From Pohlia nutans (lineage: Eukaryota; Streptophyta; Bryopsida; Bryales; Mniaceae), in contig CM040107.1 in the NCBI GenBank assembly GCA_022496805.1, positions 11,304,501 to 11,368,500 on the forward strand: a stretch of 64,000 nucleotides of DNA. Direction: 5' to 3'. Each line of letters starts with the position of its first letter. Position 1 is the stretch's first letter. Both the position numbers and the translations under genes were made by a program. Shown here piece after piece: positions 6,507 to 64,000 of this stretch. Below the pieces are notes generated by a model. It had not been told where the DNA came from, made no database searches, and was given only the letters and a program-made list of their open reading frames with translations.

Positions 6507-6509
6507 ATA

Positions 6510-6930: not shown

Positions 6931-6932
6931 TC

Positions 6933-17374: not shown

Positions 17375-17460
17375 GGGAGCGGTGAGCAGCGAGCGGAGAT
17401 ATATGGGATGACGAGCAAGAATTTCAGGTCAACCGTGGTCAACGTTACTATAATTAGCAA
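16273..17460 (-). pseudogene. Gypsy integrase fragment, copy 2
   Basis: Identical protein to the 5319-6506 copy, including the in-frame TAG at 16573-16575 and the same artificial N-terminus from the truncation. DDE residues are retained. Missing RT and RNase H make it a dead fragment. Confidence 0.85.
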
Positions 17461-37759: not shown

Positions 37760-38135
37760 CAAAACTATCTATACAAACCCTACCGTATCTACTTTCAACA
37801 TCATATTCATTAAAATGAGAGTATACTCTGAAAATGAGAATTTAGATGTGTCACAATATCCATGAATTTGATTTGAATATGCAACACAAATGGAGTGAAA
37901 TCATTACTTTGCAAGAGAATTGAGACACTGGCCATTGAAATGTAACGTAATATATGTTTATTTATAGAAATTGCATTGAGCAATAGACAATTGGTGAGGA
38001 ATTGTTGCTTATCATTACCAGAAGGAGCTACACTCTAATAGCATTTAGGTACAAGATACACAACTAAACAACGGTTCTGTACATCACTACAGTATACTAC
38101 TTCTATATAGTAATCGCAAATACCATGCAAAATGT
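37760..38135. other. A+T-rich spacer, nothing recognised
   Basis: About 375 bp between the RGG-rich gene and the last exons of locus B. No ORF, repeat or RNA gene that I can support. Confidence 0.3.
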
Positions 38136-38137
38136 TA

Positions 38138-39056: not shown

Positions 39057-39331
39057 CTGAATACGAAAAGATTTAAGAGGAGACCTCAACAAGAATAGAG
39101 TGACTGTGCTACCGTCGATTCAACTCGACTCGAATTAAATGCAGCCAGCTATGACTTGGCAACAAGGATTACGAACAAAGTCAAATCAACTCGACTCGAG
39201 TTGAATGGAGGCAGCAATGAACATGAATCATACAGATCTAAACCATAAAAGTGATAAATGAAAGAATACTCACGTGTGATTCTATGATTAACAATGCGAT
39301 GAAAGCATCCACAATAGAACTACTAAATCCA

Positions 39332-40141: not shown

Positions 40142-40320
40142 CTGTTCAGAAGGGGGAGAGACAAATGTGCAGACAGTTAAGGACTGCACTGACACATTTT
40201 CGACTCACCCAAGTCATTGCAAAACAAATATGAAATCCCAACGAAGATCAAAAATCAAATGCAGAATCGCCGAATGAAACAGAACCGTTTGCCTTGAACA
40301 GGATGACTTACAGGATTGTC

Positions 40321-40604
40321 TCATGGATTGGTCATCAGTGCAGGATTGGGGACGACGACAGAGGATGGAAGCGGAATGTGGACCTCGAGCAGAACAGCGT
40401 CAGGAATGTCGGAGTCACTCTTGTTGTCCACACGTATGGCGTCACAATCAGAAGTGGATGCTAGGCGATCACGTTCTACCGCGTCGAAGGACTCTGGTGG
40501 TGGGACTTGCTCGATAGTAAGCAAACGCTGAGGACTACTCAAATGCCTCGGGGACGCATCAAGGGATGGATTTTCGCATGGTATACTCAGGACATTGGCT
40601 GAGC
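40321..40604 (-). CDS. Locus B linker exon, low complexity
   Basis: Minus strand, after an acceptor in TTGCGCAG (exon begins 40604). About 90 codons, rich in Ser, Pro, Asp and Val (SSPQRLLTIEQVPPPESFDAV), ending at TGA just before a GTAAGTC donor. No domain. It lies between the Lys/Ser-rich exons and the FCP1-like exon and is probably a disordered linker. Confidence 0.35.
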
Positions 40605-40851
40605 CTGCGCAATGCGAAAGTGCAATAGAATAATATGTAAGAAGCAGCATTATATTTCATTCTCGGTAAAAATGAACAGCATTTACAAAAAAGGAGTAGC
40701 ATTTACAAAAATGTACAGCATAATTGTTTTAATAGTATTGTCATGTCCTACTTCAGATTTGAACTAACAAAACTCCTATATCCTGATGCTGGGGATCCCC
40801 GTGAAACTGGAAGCGAAATTCAACTCGAGTCGAGTTAAATGAAAAACAAGA

Positions 40852-41759
40852 TCACGAAGATGAACCTGGTGGCACATCTGACGCCACAAGTTCCATCGCA
40901 TCACAAGTAATGTCGACCTCGGGTTCCAGACCTGTATCTGGACTGGGGTGATTCTGAGATCGATCTTCCACTTGATCCGTCTGCGCGGTATTAGATGTTG
41001 GTGCAGGTGACGCACTTGATGTCTTGCGCGTGACGGGGGCAGGAGGAGACTGAGGAGTGGCAGCTCCACTATCGGAGGAGTTCGCCGGGCGATTTGACAG
41101 TAGGAGCTGTCCGCCATGACCATGCGCTGGATCAAAAATCATCATCGGCCTCGGTCCACTTCTACAACCAACGTCTTCAGCATTGAAGGAATCTTCTCCG
41201 TCATTAATAAGGTCCACTTGTCATCATGGGCCTTTCGCTGTCGCTCCATCATATCAAACATGAGCTGATTTGTACGCTCCTCCATCTTCATCATCTTGTC
41301 CGAAAGGCGGTCGAACAGAGCCTCAGCTAGATCAACACCTCCACCTTCCTTTCGTTTCTTCTTTTTTGGCTTTGAAACGGGAGAAGGATCTGGCATCGAC
41401 GAATCAGATGAGTGAGTCTTGCCATCTTCATTTAACTGCGAACATGATCCGAGACCGGTATGGGGCGTCACAAGAACCTGCCATCCCGGCAGTTTGATGT
41501 CTTCATCCTCACTTGAAGAATGTAGTATGAATGGTTTGGTGATGTCCTCGCCACGGTTGGCTTGGCTAGACTCTCGTGGCCTCTTGCCCTTGCCGGATGA
41601 AGAGGCTTCTTTGTCGCCTCTTTTAGGATGCTTGGACTCATCAACGTTGGATCCGAGCTCAAAATCCCTCCTGTCTAAGTTCAGGGTCTTCTCAGACAGG
41701 TCAAGAAATGCAGCGGTCTCGCTGCTTGGCCCCATGATGTAATTCTCCAACGAATTCAT
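40852..41759 (-). CDS. Locus B exon: end of methyltransferase-like fold, NLS-like and coiled-coil segment
   Basis: The exon starts at 41759 (after CTCCAG) in phase with the previous one. MNSLENYIMGPSSETAAFLDLSEKTLN would follow motif I as strand and helix of a methyltransferase fold (inference). Then come basic stretches (GKGKRPRESS, KPKKKKRKEGGG), which look like nuclear localisation signals, and a helical segment (LFDRLSDKMMKMEERTNQL) that could dimerise. Near 41150 the frame moves to a Ser/Pro/Thr-rich tail that ends at TGA 40852 or at a donor just before it. No homologue recognised for the tail. Confidence 0.4.
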
Positions 41760-41925
41760 CTGGAGTATGAAACAAAACAGCATTAGAGGTTGGTGATTGA
41801 ACGACACAAGTCATGAAAGTCAGTACCTGGACAGTTCAACTCGAATCGAGTTGAAAGTATCATGTAGAGTTACTCCCTGGACAGTTCAACTCGATTCGAA
41901 TTGAATGAGTTGGTTCGGTGAGTAC

Positions 41926-43281
41926 CCAGGCAGCACACGACAGTTTCCCACCGCCAAACACGGTCAGCACTGCGTCCCCTTCCTTGCAGAATAGGTCTAA
42001 TAACTTCAAGCATAATTCCATTCGCAACTCCGTGTTGTAAATCCGGTACTCCAATTTGTAGTAACCACCTGGAGTTGTGAATATCGTCGTTAATGGAGCC
42101 TCAAACAAATTGGGCAGGTTCTTGCGCCTAATCCTCAGTCCCTTCTTGAACATGTAGATGATCTGCACATTAGTGTGTGCATGCTTGCTGGTCGCGGGAT
42201 GATCTTCTAACCCCTCATATTTCGCCGAAGCATAATCAGCAAACTCGAGAGTGTAGTTATCTCCATATTCGGAAGCGTGAAGGTGAGGCAAAATTTTTGC
42301 CTGTGCCACTTTGTCACCACAGATCCATACCCATACGGGGAGTTTAAAAACGTCGAGATCATCGATCCCTGAGAGCACGGAGAGCACGTTGTAAAAGTAC
42401 GGTGAGTCATTTGAAGACCCCGCCTGTTCAAGCGCACTAGGGAGATTTCTGAAGTCCATAATCGCCACCTTAATCCTCTTGGCGGTCGTCTCATCCCATG
42501 CGTCTATGGTCCATTCCGCCAGGACATCCTCATCCAAATCATAGGGCCTGTAGTATGCATTGCCCTTGGGAATCTGAAACTTGTTGGTGAGGAACACCTT
42601 GAAGAATTCATTAGCATAGGGAGACATATCCTCAATGCTCTTGTTCTTATTGTGCGGAAGTTTTGCGGCTGTGAAGTAGTCCTCTCCAAGAGCAGATAGC
42701 AGGACATTGAGAGCAGCTTTTGTAATTCTGAATTCCGCCTTAAAACGCTTCCAGCTATCCTTCTTGAACTCGCCGCTGGAGCTGTGAAGAGGGAACTCTG
42801 GCCGCATGCTATGAATCTGCCTCTTCACAATGGTCTTCCTCTTGCATCTCTCCAGCCAATCCTTGTAGCTGTAGCAGTTGGGATGCACTCCCTTGATCTG
42901 TTTCATCGTGACTTTGGGGTAGTACTCTTTCCTTTTGGGGTCTGGCCTGTTGAGCAGGTGCTCGGCAAACCTCTTTAGTTGCGCTTCGTTCAGGTTCCCC
43001 AACCACTTGAAGAACTCTCGGGTCATGACTCCATCCTTCTCCAGATTCCAACTGTTGAGTTCCTTAAACTTCTTCCCCGTATCAGGATCCATGAGTTCCC
43101 CCTGAGAGCATGCAGAAATGAGCTCGCCCCACAGGCTGTACACCTCCTCAGACGCAGTGATGATCTTCAGCTCGTTGTGAAGAGCCAGCTCCTGCTCTCT
43201 GGGCTTCTTCCCGCTCAATGCTTTCTGGGTCTTCTTTACGTCTATCAGTGCAAAGCGAAGTTTCACCGCGTCCTGGAATTC
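41926..43281 (-). CDS. Locus B: beta-class methyltransferase-like exon, 452 codons
   Basis: One open exon in phase with its neighbours, homologous end to end with 62592-63944 (for example TREFFKWLGNL, YPKVTMKQI, HEFFKVFL versus NEFFKVFL, FRNLP, LRMELCLKLLDLF). The C-terminus GDAVLTVFGGGKLSCAAW fits motif I of DNA N4/N6-adenine or cytosine methyltransferases (usual form VLDPFxGSGTT). About 160 residues earlier VAIMDFRNLP and PVWVWICGD occupy the places of motif IV (DPPY) and the next strand. Motif order IV then I is that of the beta class. DPPY is not preserved, so it may bind SAM or DNA without methylating, or the assignment may be wrong. The splice acceptor has CAA where CAG is expected, so this copy may be dead. 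Confidence 0.5.
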
Positions 43282-43394
43282 TTGTGGCATTCAATACACG
43301 AGTAGTTGGATTAGTAATACAACTCGAATCGAGTTAAACAGTTTTGTCTGTCTATTCCGTGCTTAACATTAATTGAGCGTATGACCTATGTCGT

Positions 43395-45105
43395 AGCATG
43401 TGATACCGGATATTCCCCTAGAACGCACTTTTTCGTATTAAGAGCGCTCGTAGAGGTGATTTCCAGGTCATCATTCCGCGGAGACTCTGTGAAGTGGGAA
43501 GCTTCCGGAGATGGTCCCGGACTGGTGACTACTCTCTCTCTGTCACCAGCTGAATCCCTCTTACCTACTGAACCGGGCCTTTTCCTACTGACTGACCCGG
43601 TTACGACTAGATCCGGTATCTTTCCGGGGAGGACTTTTCACTAATCTTCCTCTCCCCCGGTCCACCGGTATGACCTGATCCGGTTTCGTTTAACCTCTGT
43701 TTCCCCTCAGAGGGTTCTCCATTCACATTAGTGGTGCTGGATTGAAAGACACACCCCTCCCTACTGATTCAAGTGATGGGAAATTCACTACTTTCCGGTT
43801 ATACTCACAAAAACTCCTCTCTTCAATCTGGGTAATTCCCGTACTGCACTTCAGCTGCAGATTCATCCCAAACCCACAGCCGGTCACTTAAGTGCAACCC
43901 GGGTTTCCCCCTTCTAAAGATTACTACAACGACTTGATAACCGAGATGGACCCTTATCCGGGGATTCCGGAATTGGTTGGACTCCTAATCAGTTCGTTTT
44001 ACTCTGATCCTTCTGGCTTTCCTTATTACTTGGTCTACCCAGGTACTAGCATCTCAACCGGACTACCCGTCCAGGAGTTCTGAGAGAACCGGAGTACCCC
44101 CTCCTATTCACTCAGCCATTAATCCGGATTATACCTTGTAACCGAGCATGAAACAACCCACCTTCAAACAATCTCTGAGTTTTCCCAATACCCAGACTCT
44201 TAACTGGATCTACAACAGAACCCGGTCACTCTAGCTATTCCGGACTCATCTATCACATGGTCTACCCAGGTGCTGGCACCTCAACCGGACTACCCGTCCA
44301 GGAGTTCTGAGAGGACTAGAGTACCCCCTCCTATCCTCTCAGCCACTAACCCGGATTATACCTTGTAACCGAGCACGAAACAACTAGATCCACAACAGAA
44401 TCCTATCAACCCTTCCGGTTACCAAGGGACTAATTGGACCACGATCTCAATCAACAACCACACACTCATACACACACACACACAAACACTCCGGTCCATA
44501 GAAGAGTATGCCTATGATCATTTACAAAGAGAAAATGGTACACAAAAAGACAACTGGAATGAAGAACATCCCTGGATAAAAAGAAAACACAAAGCCGACC
44601 AGATCCGGGAAACCCGCAGATCCGGAAAAACCGGGGGACTACCCCACGATTTAGTTCTCTTCCTACACTGCAACTAACATTAGAATCCTAAGAAAACAAC
44701 TCCCAATCGGAGTCCTACCCAACTTGCTCAAAAAGGGTCCCGTTCAAACCGGCCGGATCCACAAAGTTCGGGCCACTGATTCCGGGCCTCCGATGACTCC
44801 GGGCAGCCGTTGGTCCTCCGGCGGCTACTCTTCCTCATCTTCCGGACTTCCCACTACAATTGGATCAGCAGGCCTATCTCCCTGAGTTCTGTGCGCCGCC
44901 GACTGGCCCTCCTGTTGCTTTTCCGCCTTGTTTGGTTGGACATCCATTGCCTCCATACCTTCGCTCAAATCCCGGACTTCTTCTGGGCTCACTCCCGCTG
45001 GTCGGACCATGTGGATGGGTTCCACATCTACCATGGTCCGGGAGGTAAGTTCTTCCTGATCCGACTCCTCCGAAGAGCTTTCCCGGCTGAAGTACCCTTC
45101 TTGTT
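43395..45105 (-). mobile_element. Element T, 3' fragment
   Basis: Homologous to 46218-47745: the same left end (TCGTAGCATGTGATAC versus TCGTAGCACGTGATAC), the same CCGG-rich untranslated region, the same (CA)n run near 44465, and the same acidic C-terminal coding part at 44825-45050 (VEPIHMVRPAGVSPEEVRDL). It stops at 45105 against a transposase fragment. An internal duplication makes 44031-44160 recur at 44259-44390. It lies in the intron of locus B. Confidence 0.7.
44031..44390. repeat. Local direct duplication inside the element T fragment
   Basis: About 130 bp containing GGACTACCCGTCCAGGAGTT and CCGGATTATACCTTG appears at 44031-44160 and again at 44259-44390, 228 bp apart. The sister copy at 46855-46980 has only one. 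A replication-slip or unequal-exchange event after the copies separated would explain it. Confidence 0.8.
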
Positions 45106-46217
45106 GTCCCCGGTAGCATTGTCCATGTGCACATGGAGAACGGGCGGCAAAGGAGTCGCTAGAGGAGAGGTTCCAGCGGTAGGACACAACGATGGTTCAC
45201 AAGTCTTTGCCCCCTTAAGCACAACATCAAACAATGGAGATGACCTTGATCCCACAAACAATTCCCCAGATGCAAACTTAGGAGGCAACTCTAGATCTCG
45301 CAACAACTTGGCCATTGAGCCGATGGTGTAATTGGAATCGTGCGAGAATAGATCCTGACCGTGTTGCGCATAGCGCACATCGCCGTGGCCATGTGCAAGC
45401 ATACTTGTAACGGAAACGGGCAACTTCACAAGGCCATCAATCTCTTTGCTCTTGTGGGAGAAAACCGGAGAAGCCGTTTTCGCGTGGTCCATCTTGTCAT
45501 GCATGATCGTGAGATACTCGTGGGGGAAGTTGAAAGATCGGGTGCGGTTGGCGTAATAGAACTCTCGGTGCGCACGCGCAAGAGCCAGATGCTTGTCTAA
45601 TCTCTTGGCCCAGAGCAATGCTTACTGGGATCCAGCTATTGATCCCCTCCTAAGAGAATGATATTTGTCGCACGTTGCGCACCGAGCGAAATTGTCACCT
45701 GGTTTCTATCCGTCAAACTCACTGAACCTGGATGTCCTAATCTTGCTCAAGTTTGAAGGCGAGACATCCTTCAACCCAAACGCTGCATTCACCCTGTTCA
45801 GTTCGGGAATGGTGTCTTTCCACTGAAAGGTTGCTGGCAGAATCATGGAAACGACCTTCTCCCTGGATTTGAGCGTCCACGTGCGGTGGGGCATATGGTC
45901 TGCGGATATCTCTAGAATATATCGCAGCGTGGCGGTGGCTTGAACAGTGTGATTACGAGGCTTCCGGATCCCGTATTTCCATGAGGATGCGCTTGCCGCC
46001 CCCGCACTGCGTATGTTTGATAACGGTAGAATGTTGCTTCGGGGACACGTGCAATATGCATCCATGCTCGCACGCAAACATCAATACCTTCGATAGTCAC
46101 AACCCTCCAGTTTTGAGAATCACGGTGAATGTGCCTGTGGATTTCCATCCTTATATGGAATCTTAACAGAAAAGAGGTGCCTTGATACATACGTTCGCAG
46201 AAGGCACGAATCTTCTC
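45106..46217 (-). pseudogene. DDE-type transposase-like gene fragment (DUF7869-like)
   Basis: Minus strand. The chain reads VCVRAWMHIARVPEATFYRY, a HGNTG loop, HTVQATATLRYILEISADHMPH, FARCATCDKY (zinc-like CxxC), AHREFYYANR, MHDKMDHAKTASP, LAHGHGD, a SNYTIGSMAKLLRDLE helix and VHMDNATGDNKK. The spaced Asp residues and the DN-x-x-x-DNK motif match a plant transposase-like family often annotated DUF7869 (from memory, moderate certainty). Breaks: a frameshift near 45970, TAG at 45706-45708 and TAA near 45626. Both ends are cut by element T copies (45105 and 46218), so only the middle of the gene survives. Confidence 0.5.
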
Positions 46218-47416
46218 GTAGCACGTGATACTCGATATTCCCCAAGAACGCACTTTTTCGTATTAAGAACGCTCGTAGAGGTGATTTCCGGGTTATCGTT
46301 CCGCGGAGACTCTGTTAAGTGGGAAGTTTCCGGAGATGGTCCTGGACTGGTGATCTCTCTCTCTCTCTGTGTCACCAGCTGAATCCCTCTTTCCTACTAA
46401 ACCGGGCCTTCTCCTACTGACTCACCCGGTTACGACTAGATCCGGTATCTTTCCGGGGAGGACTTCTTACTAATCTTCCTCTCCCCCGGTCCACCGTTAT
46501 GACCTGATCCGGTTTCGTTTAACCTCTGTTTCCCTTCAGAGGGTTCTCCATTCACATTAGCGGTGCTGGATTGAAAGACACACCCCTCCCTACTGATTCA
46601 AGTGATGGGAACTTCACTATCTTACGGTTATACTCACAAAACTCCTCGATCCGGGTAATTCCCGTGCTGCACTTCAGCTGCAGATTCATCCCAGACCCAA
46701 GCCGGTCACTTAAGCGCAACCCGGTTTTCCCCCTCCTAAAAATTACTACAACAACCTGATAACCGGGATGGACCCTTATCCGGGGTGTCCGGAATCGATT
46801 GGAGTCCTAACAGTTTGTTTTACTCTGATCATTCCGTCTCTCCTTATCACATGATCTACCCAGGTGCTGGTACCTCAAACGGACTACCCGTCCAGGAGTT
46901 CTGAGAGAACCGGAGTACCCCCTCCTATCCACTCAGCCACTAACCCGGATTATACCTTGCAACCGAGCACGGAACAACCAGATCTTACAACAGAATCCGA
47001 TCAACACTTCCGGTTACCAAGGGACTAATTTGGACCCCGATCTCCATCAACAACCACACACACACACACATACACAAACACTCCGGTCCGTACAAGAGTA
47101 TGCCTAGGGTTATTTACAAAGAGAAAATGGTACACAAAAAAGACCCAGGAATGAGGAACATCCCTGGATTAAAAGAAAACACAAAGCCGACCAGATCCGG
47201 GAAACCCGCAGATGCTAAAAACCCGGGATCCGGAAAAACCGGGGAATTACCCCACGGTTCAGTTCTCTTCCTACACTGCAACTAACATTAGAATCCTAAA
47301 AAAAACCTAACTCCCAAACGGAGTCCTACCCTACTTACTCAAAAAGGGCCTGTTCTAAGTAGCCGGATCCACTAAGTCCGGGCCAGTGATTCCGGGACTC
47401 CGATGACTCCGGGCAG

Positions 47417-48480
47417 CTACTGGTCCTCCGGCGGCTGCTCTTCCACATCTTCCAGGCTCCCCACCGCGATCGGATCCGCCGGCCTATCTCTTCGAGTTTC
47501 GCGCGCCGCCGGCTGTCCCACCTGTTGCTTTTCCGCCCTGTCCGGTTGGACATCCATTGCCCCCATACCTTTGCTCAAATCCCGGACTTCCTCTGGGCTT
47601 ACTCCCGCGGGTCGGACCATGTGGATTGGCTCCACATCCATCACGGTCCGGGAGGTAGTTTCCTCCTGATCCGGCTCCTCCTCCGAAGGGCTCTCCCATA
47701 TGTACTCCGCCAGTACCCGGAACTCCACCAAGTATGCCTCTACCTTGTCCGAGTATTCCCGGACTACATTCTTCATCCGGGCTGCTCCCTCCTATCCTGG
47801 TTGAAGTACCCGCTCGTCGTACAACCGGGCCTTCGTTTGTGCCTCCCCATTCGACTGGAACAACCCGGATAGTTTGGAGACGCACTGCCGGCTTGTCTCT
47901 GCTACATTCCGGATGGTATCCTCTTGCTCCCGGATCTGCAACTCCTTCCTCTGTACGTGGGCCTCCATCTTGTCAATGTAGGCTACCTTTCGTTGCAGCT
48001 CCTCCTCAAATCCCTTCAAGAGAGCCGCCGATTCGCTCTCTGCTTTCCGGATACCCTGCAGGTGTCCGGTTAGCTCATTCTCCCTTTCCCTGCTCCGGAT
48101 GAGTTTCCTCTGGAGCTTCCGAACCCGCGCCGGATACTCTTGAGCGTTGTTTGTCCGAAGGAGAGTCCTTGTCTCCAGAAGAGCAGCGATCATGGGGTTG
48201 TACTGCTCCGTCACCATGTCCAGTGCCACCCGTGTCTGCACTAACATGTCCTCCATCCGGAGCGGTTCTTCATTCCACGGGCACATTCCCGGATGGTCCT
48301 GCCTCCTGGACCGGTTCTGCTCCCGCTGGCATTCCCTGCTCCTGGTCCCCCTCGTCTCCGGTTTCCTCTTCGTCCTCCCCTGCTTCCTTGGGACGTTTGT
48401 TGAGTGGGGTCACCTTCCTCCGGGCCGGTCCCTTCTTCTTTCCAAGCGTGGTATCCGGTCCTTCTGGTTCTTGCTCTCAT
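47417..48480 (-). pseudogene. Element T protein, coiled coil and acidic tail
   Basis: From 48286 to 47792 the chain is mostly helical with heptads (VRKLQRKLIRSRERENELTG, RKVAYIDKMEAHVQRKELQI), predicting a long coiled coil. A stop near 47792 and a frame change lead into the acidic tail 47776-47417 (EYIWESPSEEEPDQEE, VEPIHMVRPAGVSPEEVRDL). The piece upstream of 48286 is Gly/Arg/Glu-rich. The architecture (globular, charged linker, coiled coil, acidic tail) parallels the extra ORF of the Gypsy fragment at 2668-4640 although sequences differ, so a similar structural role in a retroelement particle is possible. Confidence 0.45.
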
Positions 48481-48645
48481 TCAACCGGGAGGACTAACTT
48501 CCTCTTCCGTCCCTGGGATCGCGGCTGAGACGGACCTCCCTCCCGGTCCATCCGGTTCTCTTCTTCTATAAGTTCCTTCCTGCCGCTCCTCTTGTTGCGG
48601 CCTGGCGACACCCGGTCGGCCTCCCTCCGGGCAGTCTTCTCTCCA

Positions 48646-49371
48646 CTAGGTTCTGTTCTCCGGATTAGGGCTAGAATCGCCCATTGGCCTTTTTACCGGT
48701 TGGTCTTCCTTCTCCTTCCGGAGCTCCTCTCCCTGGACCCTACTCCTATCCGGTTGGGTTGCAGGTGGAGCCATCCTTCTTTTCTCCGATCGGGACGACG
48801 AACCGGTTCTGCTGGTCCCCGCTCCTCCTCCTGGAAGCGCCGTCTTCTTCTTGGCCGGACTTCTCACCTCCGGAATAGGAACTACCTCCAACTTCTTCTT
48901 CTCCCCGGCCGTGAGGCACCCATGTTTCTCGTACAGGTGGTAGAGAAATGGGGCTAACGGGCATCCCTTCTTGTTGTCGAGGTTGCCCGCCCACATCTGC
49001 GTGTTCCGGTGGATCAGGATCGCCCAGTTGATCCGTTTCTTCCGGAGAAGGGCGGAGTAGATACCCCGGGACAGCGTCACAGTGAGGGTGGAGGGCTTCT
49101 CCGGACTGAGGATGGGCACTATGTACTGGAGCAGCCGTTGCTCTCGGGGCAGTATGCAATCCGCCACCTTGAATCCGTCCTTGTCCGAGAGATGACTGAA
49201 CCGCATCTTCACCCAGTCCGTGTCGCCCTTGCCTCCCGGTTCCAGGTCCTCGTTGGTGTCCGGGAAGTCGTACAGTTCCCGCCACATCTCCCGGGTCCAA
49301 CTGCCATACTTCGCCCGGATGGTTGTCCGGAAGGCGTTCACCATTGCCCCGCCCTCGATTTCCTCCAGCAT
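48646..49371 (-). CDS. Element T globular domain
   Basis: 241 codons on the minus strand, starting MLEEIEGGAM. A globular stretch (GDTDWVKMRFSHL, ADCILPREQRLLQYI, LTVTLSRGIYSALLRKKRI, NWAILIHRNTQMWAG, PLAPFLYHLYEKHG) is followed by a Lys/Arg/Pro-rich end. Homologous to 30876-30330, where the same segments occur in broken frames. The pattern of a hydrophobic IYxxLxxKKINWxxxI helix and a terminal FLYxLYEKHG helix recalls the domain called 'putative plant transposon protein'. Low certainty; function unknown. Confidence 0.45.
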   Translation of the reverse strand: MLEEIEGGAMVNAFRTTIRAKYGSWTREMWRELYDFPDTNEDLEPGGKGDTDWVKMRFSHLSDKDGFKVADCILPREQRLLQYIVPILSPEKPSTLTVTLSRGIYSALLRKKRINWAILIHRNTQMWAGNLDNKKGCPLAPFLYHLYEKHGCLTAGEKKKLEVVPIPEVRSPAKKKTALPGGGAGTSRTGSSSRSEKRRMAPPATQPDRSRVQGEELRKEKEDQPVKRPMGDSSPNPENRT

Positions 49372-49439
49372 ATAGGAGTCCTACACATCCCACACTCTCC
49401 CAAACAATCCCAAACACCCCATCTTCTGGAGGTCCTGCA

Positions 49440-50157
49440 TCAGCTCGTCGAAGTCTTGCTCGTGCTGCGGAATGTCCAGGCAGATGCGTTTCTCCGGAAT
49501 CTTGGCCCCGGCTTCCCTGCGTGCCATGGCTGCGGACTCCGGGCGGAATTCTTCACTCCTCCGGACGTGGCGCAGCTCCTTCTCCGGATGCGTCCTCTCT
49601 TTCCTCGGTAAACCTCGCGCCTCCCGCTCCGGACGCTTCCCTTTCCGCTTCCGTGGTGTTCTTCTAACCTCCCGAAGACCCTGCGACCCTCTTCCTGGCT
49701 ACACACTTCCTTTCTTCCTCAAACTCCGCCGGAAATGGCGGTGCGTGCTGTTCGGATGCTCGCTTACTCCAAATTCTAACCTCGCGTCGCTGATTCTCAC
49801 CGGGTGTTCAGTTTCCCTTAGTCCCGGACGCTCACAATCTGCACAAGACAGTCGCCCAATGCCCTCTACTTTTGGTTCCACACTATCAACTCTACTGTGA
49901 TCCGGACGCTCAAAGTTCTGCTGGCGCGGACAACTGGAACAGTAGAGAGTGAATGAACAGTGGGTCGCCCAATTTAGAGCGGCCCACTTCAATGCTCGGA
50001 CCGTGGCTGGGTCCATCGGAGACCCGTCCTCACTTATCCGGTCTCCCATCCGGTTTCCCACCTGAATCTGCTGTCGGTCTAGTCCTGTAGTAATCCCTCT
50101 AGGCTGCGCACGGATGCTACTCTCTTTCCAAATAAATAACTGGGCCGTTAAGGCCAT
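49440..50157 (-). pseudogene. Element T N-terminal basic region
   Basis: Minus strand, 50157-49699: a Ser/Arg/Glu-rich chain including DPATVRALKWAALNWA and HRHFRRSLRKKGS, matching DPATIRDLNWAALNWA and RNFRRSLRKGVS in the copy at 31550. The frame then shifts to 49706-49440 (charged, Arg-rich). Probably unstructured. Start codon uncertain. Confidence 0.4.
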
Positions 50158-50295
50158 TACTTCTCTTATTTATGGCGGAAAGATTACTCCTAGCTGCCCT
50201 AGAAACCCTAACTAGCTGCTTTTGGGAAAACGAGGTTTGACAACCTACTCAGATTGAACGCATTCAACTCGAATCGAGTTGAACTGCATGATTAC

Positions 50296-51728
50296 CTTGT
50301 ACTTCTCTGCATCTTCCAGTTGCTTCTTTGTTCTCTTAGTGGGTAAGGCCCTGCCAACCTGTGTAGCCGCCTTCAAAGGTGTTGGACATTTGAGGCTTTT
50401 CTACACCGCACGAGCGCCTATGATGTTCGTGGCCCACGTTGGGTTGAAGTTCTGAAAATGGTTCACCCGGTTGCAGTAGGCAGAAATTTTTCTTAGGATC
50501 GACTTGTCATCATTCCACACGATGAAGCACTCACACTTCTCGAACTTGTCCTTGATCTTCTGACTGATCTCAAGCCTTGTTTTCATAAGCTTTGATGCTT
50601 CCACGCTGTGCTGGCCGTTGATCATATAAAATTTTCCATCGTTGATGTCCTCCCAGGTGCGCGGTTTAACCGTAAAGTCCTTGGGGATCGCTCACAATGT
50701 GAGTTTTTAATCCTTGTTCGGCATCTCGTCAAGGAAATAAATTACTTGCTGCACCTTTCTTTGCTCCAGGCTACGAACATTGAGCTCTGCAAGGGGAGTC
50801 AGCAGCTCATCGATGGAAATCTCAAACGACTTTTCGATCCCCCATATGTACGAGTCGGTGCATTACGACGAGTAGTTCTGGTACACCTCCATGGAGATTT
50901 GTAGTCAATCTTCTTCTTGTCGTAATCGGTTGGAATGTCTGTCAGTGCTGATTCCATCCTGAATTCTCCCTAGTGAGATGGCTGACCTTCGTCTGCTAAA
51001 AGGGACTTCCGGGTTTGGATAGCCCTTAAGTTTCTAGGAGTCGCCGGTGTCCTGGGGGTCTGCGATGCGGAGGGTTTTCGTTTCTTGTTCCCACTCGTCC
51101 CAGTGTTAGGGGTTTCAAACAGCAAGGATTCCTGGCTTCCACCCTGGCTACTTAATTCCCTGCTCAAATGTAATGGCTTCATCTGCTTCCTGATGACGTC
51201 GAGCTTCATCTTGTACATCTCAAGAGCTGTCAGCAGACTCCCCAAGCGCGGTGCAAGGATATGCATAGGGTGCTGGTCCCCGATTGCAGTTTTATACCGA
51301 TAAGTATCAGGGTGAGCCTCCACATCCTTTGCGAGGCTCTCGAAATTTGTGTCCTTGAGGCAAGCAATGTGTGGAGTTATGTTGAAGGGAGTCTTCTCCG
51401 GCTCCATCATGTACGTGAAGCGGTAGTCGTGGTCAGTCCCTTCATCCCAGACCACGCTTGTGACGCAGACGTAGCCGTTCAGATGAGGGGCTACATCCAC
51501 GACCTCCTCGTTTAGGAAGACTGGTAGAGTGGGATCGCAATTCTTGTATTTGTTTATTAGTGCCAGCTTTTCAGTGTTGGGAACCAGAGTTAGGCTCCAC
51601 CACTCGACGTTTTCCGGGTCCTGAAACTCCCAGCACTCACCATGAGTAACCTCGTCGCCGAATGGTACTCCATCATTGCCAAATTGATCGAACCGCTTGA
51701 AGAAGGCAGCAAGCCGAGCTTGTTGGTT
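50296..51728 (-). pseudogene. Locus B: ParB/sulfiredoxin-like gene, exon 1 with several stops
   Basis: Homologous along its length to 60894-62370. The N-terminal domain includes WWSLTLVPNTEKLAL and FNITPH, then a Ser/Lys-rich linker (KKRKPSASQTP). The ParB/Srx-like part follows: ISIDELL, KFYMINGQHSVEAS (about 50604-50637) and ISAYCNRVNHFQ. Stops interrupt it: TGA at 50970-50972, a TAA near 50865, then TAA and TGA near 50710-50690, with one frame change near 50970. TAG at 50401-50403 follows IIGARAV. In-frame sequence then continues for exactly 35 codons to the donor GTAATC (exon end 50296), as in locus A. The start is an acceptor (GCACAG) at 51729. The element insertion lies in the next intron. 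Confidence 0.65.
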
Positions 51729-52183
51729 CTGTGCGTGTGAACCAACGTAAACTAAGTATTAGTTGTTATTCCTTTAGTTTTTCATTGTTGATTCGTGGAA
51801 TTCAACTCGATTCGAGTTGAATAGGCTCGCAACAACCTGATTTACGTCTGTCAGGGTTATTCGCTGCAATTTAACTCGACTCGAGTTGAATGTTTATAAT
51901 TGATACCATATAAAAGTTTGCAATTAAACATTAAGGACAGGATTACCTTATGAGTTTATATTGTTTCATTAAATTAAAACTTTTAACTCGAACCGAGTTG
52001 AATATTTTTTATCTAGTGGTTGACTGCGCGAATGACATTTGTGGGTCTTCTTAGCATTCTCTTGTGTATTAGGCAATTCAACTCGATTCGAGTCGAATTA
52101 CCTGATATAGAATTTGTTTATTTTTGACTGTAGATTATGGAATATGGAATATGTTTATTTTATTCAACTTGATGGGAGTGAAA

Positions 52184-52900: not shown

Positions 52901-55900
52901 TCAATGTACTGCATTCCTAGTTACTCGGACAGAGGTGCCAGCGTCAGGTGCTCCTGGGTCCGCTCTATCGTTGTCAGGGCTTGGGGATGGGCCCAGTCGG
53001 TTCACTACGAAATCACCTGCGGTGTCGTCTGTGGTTTCATTATCGTCAGATCTTGTACTGCTACTCCCGGCAGGGCTATTGCGACGTCGGTTTCCGATGC
53101 GTGGTTCAAGAGAGGAAAGTGTTTTTAGAGGTCGTCGACCGCTTGCATCCAAAACACCATCTGTATTTGGCCCTCCTAAATTGACTTCGCCAGCAAACGG
53201 TTGGGTAGATTGCCGCATATGCTTATTTTTGCGGGTGGTCCGGGTAGTTGGAGTTGCACGGTCGTTGTGAAAAAGGCGAAGGAGTTGTTCTCGTGGACGC
53301 TTTTGGGCATTGGTACTTTGAGGTCCACTTCTTTCTATCGGTCGGATTTCTCTCGTGCGCAGTGTCATATTCAAAGTTGGGCCTAAACCGGTCAACCGCG
53401 TACCTATCGATGGACCAATTTCACGGGGGCGTGTTGGGGGCATTGCTGACGAGGACGGTACTGATGAGTCTTGGGTGGATGGAGTAAGAACATCCACACT
53501 GTCCGACGGGGGGCGACGAAGCCTACGAAAGGCTGCTTGCAACTGTACCGGTGCCATTTCCTGTCGATCACCTGAATTACCTTCTCGGTGTGGAGAATTT
53601 GGAGACGATTCTTGGGTACCAACTACTTCATTAGCCTCCTCTCCTTGTCCATCTTGTTGCTCCTCGAGGCTTGCCATAATTGCTGGTTCTTCAACCACTA
53701 TAATGTCATTGTTTTTTTCTGGTACTGGCGGTACTGCAGGGACATCCTCGTTCTCACCATTGTCCATTGGATTGGCTAGCTCCGGCCCTCCACCGTTGTC
53801 TCCGTCGTCGTCACCGTAGTTATTGTCAACGTCATTAAAATCAAACACGGCTGGGTCAATTAGTGGGCGTTTTGGTCCCCTTCCAGGGTTCCCGCCGAAT
53901 GGTGCATCATCGTCGTCGTCCGAGTCGTAATTATCTGAATCAGAAAATATAGACCCCCGGTCCAGACCATCAGATTCCTCCGTCATAGAGTCTTCGGACA
54001 ACATGTTGTTCGCATACGATGCTGTGGAGTTTGCGCCGCCCCTATCTCGGAGGGTCCTTGCGTTGGTGTAAATGTAAACCAACTCCTCTGCTCGTTCGGA
54101 TGTTAGTCGGTTGCGGACCTTGTTGTGTACAAATGAGTACATGCTCCAGTTTCTTTCGCAAGATGAAGCAGAACACACTTGTGCAAGAATTCGTTTTGCA
54201 ATTGGTACAAGCGTGTGAGCTCCAGCGCCAAGTAGGTCCCACCATTCATGTGGTTCCAAATTCAACGCAGCCGCGACTGGAAGTCCAGCAAATACTCCTC
54301 GGTGGTCCTTGAATGACTGATATTCTGACAACGCTGATGCGAATGCAACATCGTTCGTCGTTAATTTGCGCAACACTCTGACTACGGCCTCTGTAGCCTC
54401 CCAGTCATCTATCAGGGTGACCTCGTCCAGTAGATAGTGATTCATGAGAGCGCCTGCGTAGTGCAGATCTGTCCTCAACATGTGCCAGCGGGACTGAAAT
54501 TGGTCTTCTGCGCTCTCGGCAAGTTCCTCGTTCAATGAAAAGACGTGCTTCTCTACATTCTTCATTACTAACCATGCTTTTCCCATGCATAGGTGCTTCC
54601 CGTCGAACTCGCTCAACGCTACTAACACAGGCTCCACTATGTGCACAAAATTTACACAGGTCCCCCAGAACCCATCTGATCGCACGTATCGTCTAGCCGT
54701 GTTTGCTTTTGTGCTTGTCGCCGGTTTCGTTAGCCTGTCCACGTAGTCGTTCCAATCCGGGTCCACGACCGTCTGTTCCACGGCTTGTCGGACTTTCACC
54801 AACCGATCCACCATTAGAAATGTAGTTGCAAACTGTGTTTCAGCCGGATTCTTCAGTATCAAATTCGGAGAATGTCGACGGAATATGGCAAGCGGCATGT
54901 GGTGCGTGCATATGAAAGACACTATGGCCCGCGCACGTTTCATCATGTTCTTCACCCATCTTTCCTTCCCCTAGTCTTCCAATGAGAGATCTAAAGCGTG
55001 TGCAGCACACCCTTGAAAATAAACGTGTGGGAATCGACGTACCAACAGTTCGCCTGCTGCAATCATGTTTGCAGCGTTGTTAGTGCAAACTTGTACCACG
55101 TTCTCTGCGCCAACCGCCTCAATGTAATTGATCATGCAATTTGCCACGTAATTTGCGTCTTTACGTTCTCCCGTAGTGTCCACCGAACCCAGAAAAACCT
55201 CTCCGCTTGTACATGCCAACATAACATTGATCAACGGTCGGTTTATCACATTGTCCCATCCATCTGAGCAAATCGTCACGCCATACTTGTGGATCGAGCC
55301 CTTTGTTTTCTCGTTCACCATTGTTGCGACCTCGTCCTTTGCGGCTTTCATAAGCTTCGTCCGAATCGCATTGTACGGGGGAGGCTTGTACACGACTTTG
55401 GATTTGGACGTTGCCTCAACTGCGTCCACAAAGGCGGGGTGCTTTGCCACGTTGAACGGTATGTTAGCCTCATAAAAGAAATTAGCCCACTTCTTGTCCA
55501 ACAGTTGTTTATTCGATGTATTCATACCTTCCGGTAATGATACTTGCCTCATGGTCTGGATGGGTGTTACATTTGACTCTAGCGGCTCCGATGAACGAAC
55601 GTGTGAACCCGTGACAGTGGTGTTTCCCCCTCCTCCTACTGACGCTGACACCGATGCCTCCATGTTCCTATCTCCGCGCGGCCCGTCCACGGGATTTGCT
55701 GCCGGTGACGTATCCTCCATCTCGCGGTCATTCTCAACCTCAAGAGTTGGGGGCACATTACCCCCGCAATTATGAAACAAAGCTTTCACAGCTGCACTCG
55801 CTTTAGTACAACGCCTGACCCCTGATATGTTTTCATCCCGCCTCCAACCCAAATGCCACAACAGGCGGTCCTTCCGGTAGCTGATTGCTGTTGAACATAG

Positions 55901-58747: not shown

Positions 58748-59695
58748 TCATTCCTCGGTCTTGATGATGCCAGCTGCCAGCAGAATATTTTTAACCTCGT
58801 CTAAGCTGAGAGTAGGGGCATGGATGTACGTGTCAACTTTATAGTCCAGCTTGCAAAAGAAACGAAAGATATAGTAAAGGTGTTTGCAGTTGACGTACTG
58901 GCCACGCCTCCCAACAGCTGCAGAGTTCATGCTGGCGTAATGTGGGCACGTACATGACGGAAAATTGCACAATGTGATATTGTACAAATTATCATCGGGC
59001 TCCACCCCGGACTGGAGCACGATGATGGCACCAAGCCTGGGATAGGGGAGTAGGTTTACGCGGAGAATATTCGCCTTAACGTTTCGTGCACTCTCCCATT
59101 GATTGCAGTGAGCTTCCGAGGGAGCCTTGGTGTTCCGACGCACGTTTTTGCCGTTTCGAGATGACGGGACTCTGTCAGCATGCAATGGCCGTGGGTGAGT
59201 CCAGAGCACCGGCTCAAACACTTTCGAGGTCGTAAAGAGGCGTCGAGGCGAAAGGGCTGTAGTGGACTGCAGACGAAACCCGGCCTCCTGGAGCTCTAGG
59301 ATCTCCAAACGCGTGAGGTTTGTACCAGAGAGGACGGGCCAAACGTCTGGGAGTTCCGGGCAATCTATGACAAAGAATCGCTTCGGACCCATGACACATC
59401 GTGCGATTTGGTCAGGACAGAACCAAAAATCAGCCGTCTGAGGTTTAGTCCCTTTGTACTCCGTCCTAGTCCCTCGGTAGGTTGGGGCAGCTGTAGCCTT
59501 TCCGCCCTTCACAATCAACATCTTGCACTTGTTGCCATTCCCCGCTTGCACTGCGTGACACTGCTTTCTGGACTTGTGTGACATCCTTGCAATGTGCCAT
59601 TTTGAAGTGTCACAGTCAGTCTCCAACACCCTAGTTGTGAATGGAACCGGAGAAGTAGATCTTGATGATTGCTCCGAACATCTAGGACAATTCAA
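58748..59695 (-). pseudogene. MULE transposase C-terminal fragment with SWIM finger
   Basis: 315 open codons on the minus strand, homologous to the C-terminal third of the MULE gene at 17887-21519: KWHIAR, KATAAPTYRG versus KSTVAPTYTG, DVWPVLSGTNLTR versus DIWPVKNGTNLTR, LSPRRL, GKNVRRN. SWIM pattern CTCPHY...CKHLYYIF, then VDTYIHAPTLSLDEVKNIL. The catalytic part is absent upstream (59700 onward is locus A palindrome sequence). A more distant member of the same family; truncated, so it has no transposase activity on its own. Confidence 0.8.
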
Positions 59696-59830: not shown

Positions 59831-60867
59831 TTTACGTCGAGTCGATGTAAATGGACACGGAAACTGTCGAGGCAAACAGTAATTTGGATCGACTCCATCT
59901 AAGTACACACATAAAAGTCCTGCCTGAAACGGTATTTCAGATCGTGCCGACCTAAAATTCACCAGTAAATGCCTCAGATCAGCTCGGATCGACCTAAATG
60001 ACAGTCCGTTGAGGTCGACCCAACCAAAACTACCATATCTTTAAACGAATAGAAAGAAAACCGAGACGCAAAGATTCGGAAGATGGATTCTCCCATCCAG
60101 CAGATCGGGTCGAATCGACCTAAATTCACGACTATAGATTATATCTGTCAAATCCTAGAGTAGGAGGACTTGCCAATGTGCAAATTAACACTAAATTACC
60201 CCAAACATCGATATAACTGCAGTCCATTCAGGTCGATCCGACCTAAAGATCTATTACTCATAATCAATAGAACGAAAACATAGAAGATCACATAAGAAAG
60301 AAGCACTCAACCAGTCCAGAAGATCAGGTCGTACCGACCTAAATCCGTTATTACGAACCGGATTTACTGAAATCTAGAGTAAAAAGTCTAGCACATAAGC
60401 ATGTTCCAGATGTAAATTTTGATTGAGATGGCCAAAGATACCGCAATTGCAACAAAATTGAAGTCCATTTAGGTCGACCCGACCTAAACTACTACATCAA
60501 ATAATGAAAATCCTAAGTGGCCCCAAATGTCCTGCGTCCAAGCCATGACAAATTCCAATGAAGCCCATTCAATCTATATTCTAAGCACCACCGAATATAT
60601 CCGTCACTCCTAAATCACCAAAGTCCTTGTCAGTAATTTTATTTAGGTCGGATCGACCTAAAGAGTCCTACTTAAAGAATTGTATCATATGATAAGTATG
60701 AAGCGCAATATAGCCGTGAAACATACAGGCCGGTCTAACTTCAGGTCGTTCCGAGCTAAACCCTGATGTGAGACTTATCGAAATAGACGTCTAGGAAATG
60801 GTGATCATGCATGATATCATTGGTATTAGATATTTGTGTCGCACACTTTAGCTCGTACCGACCTAAT
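59831..60867. repeat. Locus A palindrome array (TTYAGGTCGA half-site), 12 sites upstream of the gene
   Basis: Half-site TTYAGGTCGA, one spacer base, then its reverse complement. Sites: 59831-59851, 59883-59903 (weak), 59936-59956, 59978-59998, 60009-60029, 60104-60124, 60227-60247, 60323-60343, 60468-60488, 60642-60662, 60740-60760 and 60847-60867. Spacing is mostly 30-155 bp. The best copies are 60468 and 60642. The last is 26 bp before the exon acceptor at 60893. Four more lie in the introns at 62377, 62443, 62531 and 63969. There is no ORF in this 1.1-kb stretch. Probable cis sites of locus A (inference). Confidence 0.9.
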
Positions 60868-60893
60868 TCTTTGTCTGACCGTGCTGTGAACAG

Positions 60894-62370
60894 AATGGCA
60901 TCAGAGAAGCAGACACTAAAGGAACAGCAAATGCCAAAGCTCGAGCTCTACTACGAGAGGGCAGCTCATCAGCCACACGCGGATGATGACCAGGCTGGCG
61001 ACGACCTAGCAAACTTTGGGGAGTTCTGGGACATGAAAGACCAGGATTTGCAGGAGTACTGGAGCTTACATATGATAGGAAATACACGAGACATTTGCTT
61101 CACAACGAAGGCCAAGAATGCGCCGGCCTTCCTCCCTCTTTCATACAACGAGAAGATCAAGGACATCAGCGCTGCTGGAGGGTCCAAGATATTGATTCAT
61201 TGCGTAACAACGAGAACGGAATGGGATAAGAAGCAGCAGTACAACTTCACGCTCACCTTCGACTCAGCTGTGATCCCATTCAACATCACCCCCCTGCTGC
61301 AATCTCTTGAAACGACCGAGTTCAGTGGATGCATTAAGGAGCTAAAGGACGACTATGACAATAATTACTTCCAGACCAGAAACGGTCAGCCGCTGCGTGG
61401 GGCCGAGCTCTGCTTAAAAGTCCGAAAGCTCATCCAGAACTTTGACGTCTTGAAGGCGAAGGTGGAATCGCATCAAAAATCGATGGCACCTGTAAGCGTG
61501 TCCCTCGATAACCATAGCCAGGGAGGAAGTGCGGGATCCATGGGCAACTTCTCGCCAACTGCAAGACCGCAACACAGCCGAGGCAAACGCAAGCCCAGCA
61601 CGCCTCTGACACCCTCTGGAGCACTACGCCAAAGCAACCTCGCCTCCTCCTCAAAGAAGAGGCAACCTGCGGAGAAGTCGGCGCGTGAGGCTGTCAACGA
61701 GGATAGCTTGGCGTCCGCTGTGACGGAGTTACCGGAGCCCCTGGTCGGGAACAACAAACCCGACTACGGACGCTCGGCGGAAGTGTACGGGACGTTCTGG
61801 ACGTCTTGCATCGACGCGTTTGTATTCGACGTCGACAATAAAAAGTCAATCCCCATAGAACAGCTAATCGATGCGCCTCCGCACATGAACATCAAGAGTT
61901 ACGAGCCGGAACATGCGAAAAAGATTATGACCTTCCTTCTGAGCATGCCAGATAGGAGCATGAAGCAGACTCTGTGCGTAATGCCTGTCGACCAGACCAC
62001 TAAACCGACAAGTTGGGACGCCATCAAAGATGGAAAGTTCTGGCTGATCAATGGGCAGCACAGCGTCAAAGCCAGTTACATGATGCGCGATGAAGGGCTT
62101 GACGAGAAGGACCTGAAAGACTTCGCGTCATGGAACTGCTTTGTCGTCTGGACGGAGAATAACGAAAAACTTCGTCAAATTTCCGCCTACTATAACCGCG
62201 TAAACCACTTCGGCGCCATCAAGCCGTCATGGGCGACAAACATATTAGGAGCGCGGCAAGTATAGATAAATCTCCACCGCCCCAAGAACCCAAAAGAACT
62301 CAAGGATGTCGGAATGGCTTATCAAGCCTCCAGGACGAGGGAGGCCGAAAAAAACAAAGCAAAATTCAAG
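60894..62370 (+). CDS. Locus A: ParB/sulfiredoxin-like gene, exon 1
   Basis: The exon starts after AACAG at 60893; ATG 60895 is the likely start. Residues 1-210 form a domain without a known match (EYWSLHMIGNTRD, VIPFNITPLL). A Ser/Lys/Pro-rich linker follows (RGKRKPSTPLTP, SSKKRQPAEKS, NLS-like). From about residue 300 the ParB/Srx pattern appears: IPIEQLID, HAKKIMTFLLSMP, KFWLINGQHSVKAS (about 384), then CFVVWTENNEKLRQISAYYNRVNHFG. In ParB and Srx folds this Gly/His loop binds nucleotide phosphate. TAG at 62263-62265 follows ILGARQV; 35 further in-frame codons lead to the donor GTAATG. It may bind the locus palindromes. Confidence 0.6.
62263..62370 (+). other. In-frame TAG plus 35 conserved sense codons
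   Basis: After the TAG at 62263-62265 the frame stays open for exactly 35 codons (ending NKAKFK) up to the donor at 62371. Locus B has TAG at 50401-50403 and again exactly 35 codons (ending AEKYK) to its donor. Identical residues at positions 3, 6, 10, 15, 16, 18, 23 and 35 show that this stretch is coding and homologous. Either the stop is read through, or the same codon was lost twice. Confidence 0.8.
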
Positions 62371-62376
62371 GTAATG

Positions 62377-62551
62377 TTCAGCTCGAGTCGACCTAATACG
62401 CTTCGTAGGCTATCCAATAGAGTACATCCGAGTCGGCACGAAGTTAGGTCGGCTCGACCTAATACGCTCGTTCTGTGCCATGCCTCGCCTACTACCTTGC
62501 CATCCATGCGCTTCACGAACATTTGTTCTGTTTAGATCGAGTCGACCTTAA
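62377..62551. repeat. Three palindromes in locus A intron 1
   Basis: Sites 62377-62397 (six bases after the donor), 62443-62463, and 62531-62551 (40 bases before the acceptor). Half-sites TTCAGCTCGA, GTTAGGTCGG and TTTAGATCGA, each with a near-complementary right half. Intron 62371-62591 is only 221 bp, so palindromes take up over a quarter of it and are near both ends. Confidence 0.9.
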
Positions 62552-62591
62552 TTCACTGTATGATAGCTAACGGTGTGCGTACCCACTGCAG

Positions 62592-63944
62592 GAGTTTCAA
62601 GCTGCTATGAGGTTGCGTTTCTCAATGCTCGACGTGGCGCAGGCGCAGAGAGACGCAAAGAAAAGTAATGCCGAAGCGTTGCTCGACATCCACAATGACC
62701 TGAAACTGATCACTGCGCCGGACGACGTGTTTGCTCTTTGGAGCGGAGCGATATCTAGCGCAGGAGCCGGCGAGCTTTATGACCCGGATAGTGATGGGAA
62801 GTTTTGTGAAAAGTCGAACAGGAATCCCGAGAGTGGGAATCTCACGCGCGAGTTCTTCAAGTGGCTGGGGAATTTAACCTACGATGACCTCGCGAAATTG
62901 GCCAAGCATATCCTTCATCGCGAGAACCCCAAGTGGACCAAGGACTACCCGAAAGTCACGATTAAGGCAATATCCTCGGTTCTAGACAGGTGCTATTCCA
63001 CCAAGGAATGGGTGGAGAGGAGGAAGCGGAAGCACCTTGTGAAACGGGAATTGCACAACATCGATCGTTCTCTCGGGCTCTTCAATCCGGCTGGGGAATT
63101 AGTGCCCGAGAAGTGGGGGCAGTTCAAGAAGGACTACAACGTCACAAGAGCGACCATGAATGTCCTCCTCGAGGAGCCGGGAGAGCAGTACTTCAAAGAG
63201 GCCAAGCAGGTGAGGAGCAAAAATAAGAAGACCGCGGACATCTCACCTCACGCGCACGAATTCTTCAAAGTCTTCCTGGAAAAACGAAAAGAATTCGTGA
63301 AGCCGTCTGGTAAGGCTCACTACCGGCCATACGACCCGAAGGAAAACATCCATTCCGACTGGGCGGACGGCGTCTGGACAGACGACGAGGCCAAATTCAT
63401 GAGATTGGGGGTCATCGACTTCAGGACCCTCCCCGGGGTAGAGCAAAAAGAGAAGTCATGTACGGGGATGCCGTACTTTTTCGAATTCATGACCTCTCTG
63501 AAAAGGAGAGGTGAACCGGACTTCGATCAAGTGCCTGCCTGGCTCTTTATCTGCGCCGACATGGAAGAGATGCACCAGGCAGTTCATTTTGCGGAGGGCG
63601 ACGACGTCCTCCACAAATACAAGAAAAAGTTTTCCACCTACCTTCTGGCTAAGAACGAGCGTTTGTACGATTTGCCGGCGAATTCTAAGAAGGCGCGAGC
63701 AAAAGTGGAGCTCCTCTTCTTGCAGAACCCCGAATTACCGATGGTGCGGATGATCCCCGACGAATTCAAGGCGCCAGACACTACGGTATATACGAAGCCT
63801 CGGGCGTACGATGAGCTGCAGTACCGCCTGTGCAGGGGGGAACTCAGAATGGAGTTCTACTTGTCGCTCATGAAGCTGTTCACGACAACGGGGTCTAATA
63901 TCTTCTCCGTCTACGCGGGATCCAAGATCACGTGTGCTGCTGTG
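62592..63944 (+). CDS. Locus A: beta-class methyltransferase-like exon, 451 codons
   Basis: An open exon between CTGCAG and the donor GTACGT, phase 0 at both ends, homologous to 41926-43281. The N-terminal half is helical and Lys-rich (LTREFFKWLGNL, YPKVTIKAIS, HEFFKVFLEKR). LGVIDFRTLPG (about residue 272) sits in the motif IV place and VPAWLFICADMEEM (about 313) on the next strand. LRMEFYLSLMKLF plus IFSVYAGSKITCAAV (about 437-451) sits in the motif X/I place. The fold assignment is inference; catalytic DPPY is absent in both copies, while the surrounding hydrophobic pattern is kept. No stop or frameshift, so this copy could be expressed. It continues beyond the window through an intron with a palindrome at 63969-63989. 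Confidence 0.55.
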
Positions 63945-63968
63945 GTACGTAGCATGCATGACTCGATC

Positions 63969-63989
63969 TTCAGCTCGGGTCGAGCTAAA
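63969..63989. repeat. Palindrome in locus A intron 2
   Basis: TTCAGCTCGG, spacer G, then TCGAGCTAAA, 24 bases after the donor at 63945. Same position relative to the donor as the site at 41885-41905 in locus B, but with the locus A version of the half-site. Confidence 0.85.
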
Positions 63990-64000
63990 CATTTGTAGTT

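Follow-up and report, generated by a model that had tools for sequence, protein, structure and literature searches.

Clade-specific 21-bp palindromes accompany a ParB-like gene family in the non-coding DNA of a Pohlia nutans transposon

To our knowledge, few systems by which transposons recognise themselves or counter silencing are known in detail. TnpA of En/Spm (CACTA) transposons reportedly binds many short motifs of its element and is said to be linked to demethylation; its termini, transposase and site differ from those described here. For VANC of the Arabidopsis VANDAL elements, the part of the report available shows binding and loss of methylation, and describes a short motif that recurs in introns, between genes, in the terminal regions and ahead of the transposase gene. 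There, such motifs spread by tandem repetition and differ between families together with the protein; the copies of the 9-bp VANC21 motif all point the same way, and the motif is not described as palindromic (PMC5735166). Here we analysed a window of 64,000 nucleotides (C23:11304501-11368500) from the Pohlia nutans assembly (G000, 697.8 Mb), in which two loci, A and B, each carry a ParB-like gene surrounded by 21-bp palindromes. Both loci are copies of one DNA transposon, which makes VANC the closest known analogue: in both cases a protein of the element accompanies family-specific motif arrays in non-coding DNA. The differences are that the proteins here have ParB and methyltransferase folds, and that the transposase-like gene belongs to DUF7869, whereas VANDAL elements have a Mutator-like transposase.

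The sharp 3′ end of the transposon, ...CTCTCATTTTAATGAATATTATGTT, recurred with differing flanks in locus A and in L008, L056, L058 and L060, and with one base changed in locus B; among five clade A 3′ stretches, three had this common end and two (L057 and L059) did not show it, and L049 diverged before its 3′ end. A copy at C23:2111372-2132928, whose ends and portions of the interior were read, had identical 25-bp terminal inverted repeats 21.6 kb apart, its 5′ end being the exact reverse complement of its 3′ end, and was flanked on both sides by AAAG, a target duplication resting on this one copy. L015 had the same 5′ end (28 bp, matching the 3′ termini of locus B and L008 at 96%). The layout was pieced together from several copies. 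Just inside the 5′ end, on the opposite strand, lies a transposase-like gene, whose open reading frame (ORF) in L063 matched PF25273 (DUF7869; E 9.6e-32) and which has a relative in L015. Beside it stands a palindrome array with a spacing of 76 bp (L009, partly L063) or 34-36 bp (L015). After a stretch of about 8 kb, in which no long gene was seen in the one copy examined, come a putative 5′ exon, a palindrome-rich intron and the ParB-like, methyltransferase-like, third and phosphatase-like exons, the third being known from locus B and L016 only. Among the top-ranked results of open-access literature searches, no paper dealt with a eukaryotic transposon encoding a ParB-like protein, nor did any join DUF7869 with transposase; the transposon itself is without a description in the literature searched.

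Within the window, 25 sites had at most two mismatches to TTYANNTCGNNNCGANNTRAA, 14 of them in locus A (59831-63989), 11 in locus B (39119-52097) and none elsewhere, compared with 0.74 on average, and never more than 3, in 100 dinucleotide shuffles. A search allowing up to three mismatches to a stricter frame gave 15 sites in locus A and 11 in locus B. The palindromes noticed in a preliminary description of this DNA are therefore real, and its counts of 16 and 12 were slightly high. Genome-wide, the frame had 5,343 exact matches against 31 for the reversed pattern, and the strict AC type (named after half-site positions 5-6) had 1,195 against 0. On these genome and shuffle counts, we rejected an origin by chance or low complexity. 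A simple tandem repeat was also rejected as a full account; arrays do exist, yet single sites recur at fixed places in the introns.

The general form of the palindrome is six clade-specific bases, TCGA, any base, TCGA and the mirror image of the first six. At positions 5-6, clade A half-sites read GG in 92, GC in 36 and GA in 13 of 148 (three loci), whereas clade B half-sites read AC in 80 of 90 (two loci), bearing out the earlier claim that these positions are locus-specific; position 3 also differs, being mostly T in A and C in B. The commonest half-site is TTTAGGTCGA in clade A, where the centre is loose and GC or GA occur less often, TTCAACTCGA in clade B and TTTAGCTCGA in a third group, C. 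A fourth type, TTATCYTCGA, occurs in clade D, a clade absent from the preliminary description. The common frame proposed there, TTYA..TCG-N-CGA..TRAA, stood, but its one-base centre did not hold for locus A, where three central bases vary, leaving TCG-NNN-CGA as the fixed part; the other types mostly have the core TCGANTCGA. Each locus carried one dominant type and not a mixture of many unrelated ones. Separately, some palindromes showed C-to-T type changes at CpGs (L016 at 4424, 4655 and 8356; L007 at 4874), as would be expected if silent copies were methylated.

The family comprises roughly 300 or more gene copies in Pohlia nutans. Searches with the ParB-like core returned 788-814 first-look candidates per query, of which the best 150 were scored. 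With the clade A query, all 150 had 68-100% identity; by eye, among the best 150, the clade B query gave about 85 closer rows followed by clade A at about 50%, and the clade C query about 60 closer rows with clade D at 35-38%, these row counts including fragments of one copy. We then compared the best 150 cores per query with lists of palindrome places covering part of C1. Among the 50 frame places listed (C1, 0-12.2 Mb; of the 5,343), 46 lay within 20 kb of a core (16 A, 18 B and 12 C), whereas only about 1.3% of the stretch is that close to one. The other four comprised two in L007, a relic with only the phosphatase domain, one isolated place (L014) and one poor palindrome (L017). Of the 50 AC-type places listed from the 1,195, 28 lay near clade B cores and none near A or C cores. 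The places listed thus support a linkage of the palindromes to the gene family, as had been supposed, and a random scatter without such linkage was not seen. By a hand count, 60 of the 150 best-scoring ParB-like copies were on C23, a contig of 16.7 Mb (2.4% of the genome) that could be a sex chromosome or some other chromosome rich in transposons.

The sites avoid coding sequence. In eight loci, which are not independent samples because L049 is a near-copy of locus A (96% identical), 7 of 151 sites fell within translated alignment blocks, where 39 were expected by length. On reading the sequence, all seven precede a splice acceptor or follow a splice donor. Hence, within the reach of these exons, true coding sequence holds none of the 151 palindromes, in agreement with the non-coding placement first reported. 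Of the 30 loci of clade A numbered L019-L048 (L019 being locus A itself), 27 had all three palindromes of the intron between the ParB-like and methyltransferase-like exons.

Palindrome type follows protein clade through GG, AC, GC and the fourth type of clade D. The clade D introns that we read (L065 and L066; 1.46 kb) each contained two near-palindromes with the TCGANTCGA core and a new flank, including a perfect one, TTATCCTCGACTCGAGGATAA, in the intron after the ParB-like exon; the few near-palindromes lacking this core are expected by chance. Fifteen of 95 homologous proteins ran on into sequence encoding an exact 21-bp palindrome of one of the listed types, compared with a mean of 0.05 after shuffling (20 rounds); three of these were compatible with GC as well as AC, P0089 had one extra match before its tail, P0055 is probably L018 itself, and P0057 comes from the same metagenome-assembled genome (MAG). 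P0089 and P0094, which have D-type tails, group with clade D. Homologues from other sources had palindromes at the same intron position. A Physcomitrium patens protein (P0087) also belongs to the homologues. L018 (CADCWO010000243.1), assigned to a cyanobacterial MAG, contains spliced genes of this family with TTCAGCTCGANTCGAGCTGAA in the same introns; an intron-bearing family in such a genome points to probable contamination of the MAG with plant or algal DNA. No relative was confirmed among 22 and 43 pattern matches in viral contigs, and one was confirmed among the 597 pattern matches listed from genome contigs. A quick maximum-likelihood tree of the methyltransferase-like region, in which D5 was 21% filled and two long-branch warnings arose, placed the four types of its 15 labelled rows (of 40) with three changes, the minimum. 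Palindrome type accordingly tracks protein phylogeny, as had been predicted.

A ParB/sulfiredoxin-fold N-domain was matched by fold in the ParB-like exon, in line with the name that the gene was first given. In sequence searches, the Pfam ParB family gave no match, exon 1 yielding at E≤1 only a sub-threshold PF23182 (16.1 of 27 bits), and a profile of 25 ParB-like sequences retrieved no PDB chain at E≤1. The CTP motifs of ParB are GERRxRA and ENLQR-type; neither was seen in our alignment of ParB-like sequences, where their inferred places read NGQHSVxAS and YNRxNH. The methyltransferase-like exon has a beta-class fold, and its best fold matches were N6-adenine DNA methyltransferases including CcrM. 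Beta-class amino-methyltransferases carry a DPPY-type motif IV and an FxGxG motif I. At the places inferred here from fold order, not from residue-level superposition, PP(Y/F/W) was found in none of 38 aligned rows (D-x4-P instead), and the glycine-rich motif read GxK in nearly all of them. The domain thereby differs from known members of the class (CcrM and M.BceJIV; MTA1 and N4CMT), its catalytic and S-adenosylmethionine motifs looking degraded. The phosphatase-like exon of locus B matched PF03031 (E 2.9e-14). The catalytic motif of NIF/FCP phosphatases is DxDx(T/V), which was absent from the six copies compared, the catalytic place reading DLNG in four and ELNG in two. Since both domains look catalytically degraded in sequence, we read them as putative binding and recruiting modules. 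No convincing match was found in PHROGs (best E 0.028), and none of the seven window proteins scanned matched the VANC family (DUF1985) in Pfam at E≤1.

The reading we lean towards is that the palindromes are binding sites which the transposon scatters through its own non-coding DNA for self-recognition, most likely to counter silencing. That the ParB/methyltransferase-like protein binds the palindrome we consider likely; that the function is anti-silencing we regard as evenly balanced. A protein dimer would occupy each palindrome with one subunit per half-site; a conserved part of the protein would read the invariant TCGA-N-TCGA core, and a diverging part the six outer bases that differ between clades. 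With its promoter, introns and transposase-end array coated, the element could recognise itself and would most likely be kept free of host DNA methylation and silencing; each clade could then act without waking the others. The notions of a self-marking element and of a plant host in the preliminary description are supported, the former as an interpretation; that the loci are copies of a transposon had escaped it. Given that a VANC-like pattern is formed here with unrelated proteins, we propose a convergent route to self-recognition, most likely directed against silencing.

Several observations weigh against this proposal. In the two window copies, A and B, the ParB-like exon is broken, although many others retain open frames across the core. 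Neither protein model gave a Foldseek match at E 0.001 or better, and no helix-turn-helix or other known DNA-reading domain was recognised in the model, parts of which are of low confidence. In the tree, 25 of the 40 rows could not be typed, and the labelled rows stand without a shuffle control. Because sites and protein are linked in one element, the two would diverge together even with the sites bound by a different element protein, for example the transposase. Finally, 22 of the 50 AC-type places listed fell into two clusters without a family core among the cores listed, which may be copies that lost the gene. One region, C1:26529027-26541349, contains 15 AC palindromes, arranged as two mirror-image groups separated by about 10 kb, and none of the ParB-like cores listed lies there; it is possibly an inverted or non-autonomous derivative.

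The linkage argument leads to the main rival view, in which the DUF7869 transposase or a further protein of the element uses the palindromes, the ParB-like gene merely travelling along. The dense array adjoining the transposase end fits it, as does a resemblance to the subterminal repeats of other DNA transposons, and linkage would make palindrome type track every gene of the element. We nevertheless judge it unlikely, for the sites occupy fixed positions in the introns of the ParB-like gene, some 10 kb from the transposase gene, persist in distant homologues, and are absent from the last 3 kb before the 3′ terminus in L005 and L008, where a transposase would also need them. Active marking, in which the methyltransferase domain would modify adenine or cytosine in the TCGANTCGA core and the ParB-like part would read the mark, draws on the fold matches to N6-adenine enzymes: CcrM is a GANTC enzyme, and this core holds GANTC. 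The missing catalytic motifs (no PP(Y/F/W) in the 38 rows, and GxK) and the partial retention of GANTC in clade A sites, where position 10 is A in a fraction of 0.70, make that improbable.

A ParB-parS pair had been considered at the outset. Bacterial ParB-parS shares with this element the ParB N-domain fold and twofold-symmetric sites clustered near the gene; the nucleotide-binding motifs here are altered, the site is 21 bp long with another core, and the setting is a dispersed eukaryotic transposon with a methyltransferase-like partner domain. The idea of such a pair was not sustained, given the lack of a Pfam ParB match and a palindrome that we take to be unlike bacterial parS (ParA was not looked for). 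A clamp or partition complex spreading from the palindromes for segregation or retention could also appeal to sites in arrays and to the 60 best copies on C23, but chromosomally integrated, dispersed transposons need no partition, no helix-turn-helix domain was recognised, the ParB signature motifs are altered, and crowding on C23 equally fits ordinary transposon build-up; we hold it to be very improbable. Least credible of all, and close to dismissal in our estimate, is an action in RNA, for instance as splicing signals or hairpins: several sites do lie within tens of bases of splice sites, but the arrays 8-10 kb upstream of the ParB-like exons are probably outside that transcript, a one-base centre makes a poor hairpin loop, and one would not expect a splicing signal to have outer bases that differ by clade. 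A bolder form of the self-recognition proposal, in which a ParB-derived eukaryotic clamp would load at its own palindromes by a ParB-like nucleotide switch, spread through introns and promoter, and shield the element from methylation and silencing, strikes us as rather doubtful.

If self-recognition is correct, it would represent an independent invention from prokaryotic-type parts, present in some 300 or more gene copies, and might supply 21-bp DNA-recognition pairs that work independently of one another. With at least four pairs of protein and site in one genome, it would be a natural experiment on how the two change together, and a ParB-fold protein is placed inside a eukaryotic transposon. 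The clamp, if true, would amount to a parS-like epigenetic identity system in a plant genome, and its protein-site pairs would form a naturally diverged family.

Both loci of the window are damaged copies, locus A by a cut at 59703 and a stop, locus B by stops and an insertion. Locus A is the 3′ part of a copy on the forward strand, running from 59703 to the window end at 64000 and on to C23:11372736 (L005:8736), and lacks the 5′ half. Its break was located against L050, L052, L053 and L054; since other copies continue upstream of the matching position, 59703 was rejected as the 5′ end of the element. The ORF at 58748-59695 is outside the element as bounded there. The putative 5′ exon ends near 59738, as inferred from a GT donor common to L008, and between it and the ParB-like exon stand ten near-palindromes, mostly of the GG type, starting at 59831, 59936, 59978, 60104, 60227, 60323, 60468, 60642, 60740 and 60847 (59831-60867). 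The ParB-like exon (60895-62265, forward strand; ORF listed as 60811-62265) would encode a weak N-terminal PH-like domain, a disordered linker and the ParB/sulfiredoxin-fold domain with the NGQHSV motif, and ends in a stop at 62263-62265, a point at which the reading frame of homologues continues. Three palindromes (62377, 62443 and 62531; 62377-62551), the first beginning a few bases past the splice donor, occupy the intron before the beta-class methyltransferase-like exon (62592-63947, forward strand), in which the expected DPPY-type motif reads DFRxxP. Another palindrome (63969-63989) follows in the next intron, and seven more lie beyond the window end (L005, up to 5799).

Locus B (37797-52183, reverse strand) is a degenerate clade B copy of the AC type, whose far 5′ part was not seen in the window. 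In gene order, four AC-type palindromes (51801, 51870, 51982 and 52077; 51801-52097) lie upstream of the ParB-like exon (50404-51797, reverse strand), which has in-frame stops. One palindrome directly follows this exon (50263-50283) and another directly precedes the methyltransferase-like exon (43318-43338; exon 41923-43290, reverse strand), with an insertion of about 7 kb between the two exons. Two palindromes (41835 and 41885; 41835-41905) are in the next intron. The third exon (41145-41807, reverse strand) has 70% identity over 164 residues in L016 and no Pfam match. It is followed by a palindrome at 40819-40839, the NIF/SCP-like phosphatase domain (PF03031; 39335-40195, reverse strand) with DLNG in place of the expected active DxDx(T/V), two further palindromes (39119 and 39185; 39119-39205) and the 3′ terminal inverted repeat, AACATCATATTCATTAAAATGAGAG (37797-37821, reverse strand).

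Other mobile sequences were noticed in and around locus B. Within its intron, direct repeats at 43391-45084 and 46216-47697 (about 86-90% identical) flank a 1.1-kb piece of a DUF7869 gene, so that 43391-47697 is perhaps a retrotransposon-like unit that captured part of a transposase gene. Just upstream of the locus, an ORF at 52901-54955 resembles a hAT transposase by eye, and a hAT-like insertion may have cut off the 5′ part of locus B. Elsewhere in the window, a Copia-type retrotransposon with long open frames was recognised by eye at 25688-29777, and positions 1-8368 and 10955-19322 are direct copies, 99.9% identical over 8.4 kb with ORFs integrase-like by eye, which are a very recent duplication or an assembly duplicate.

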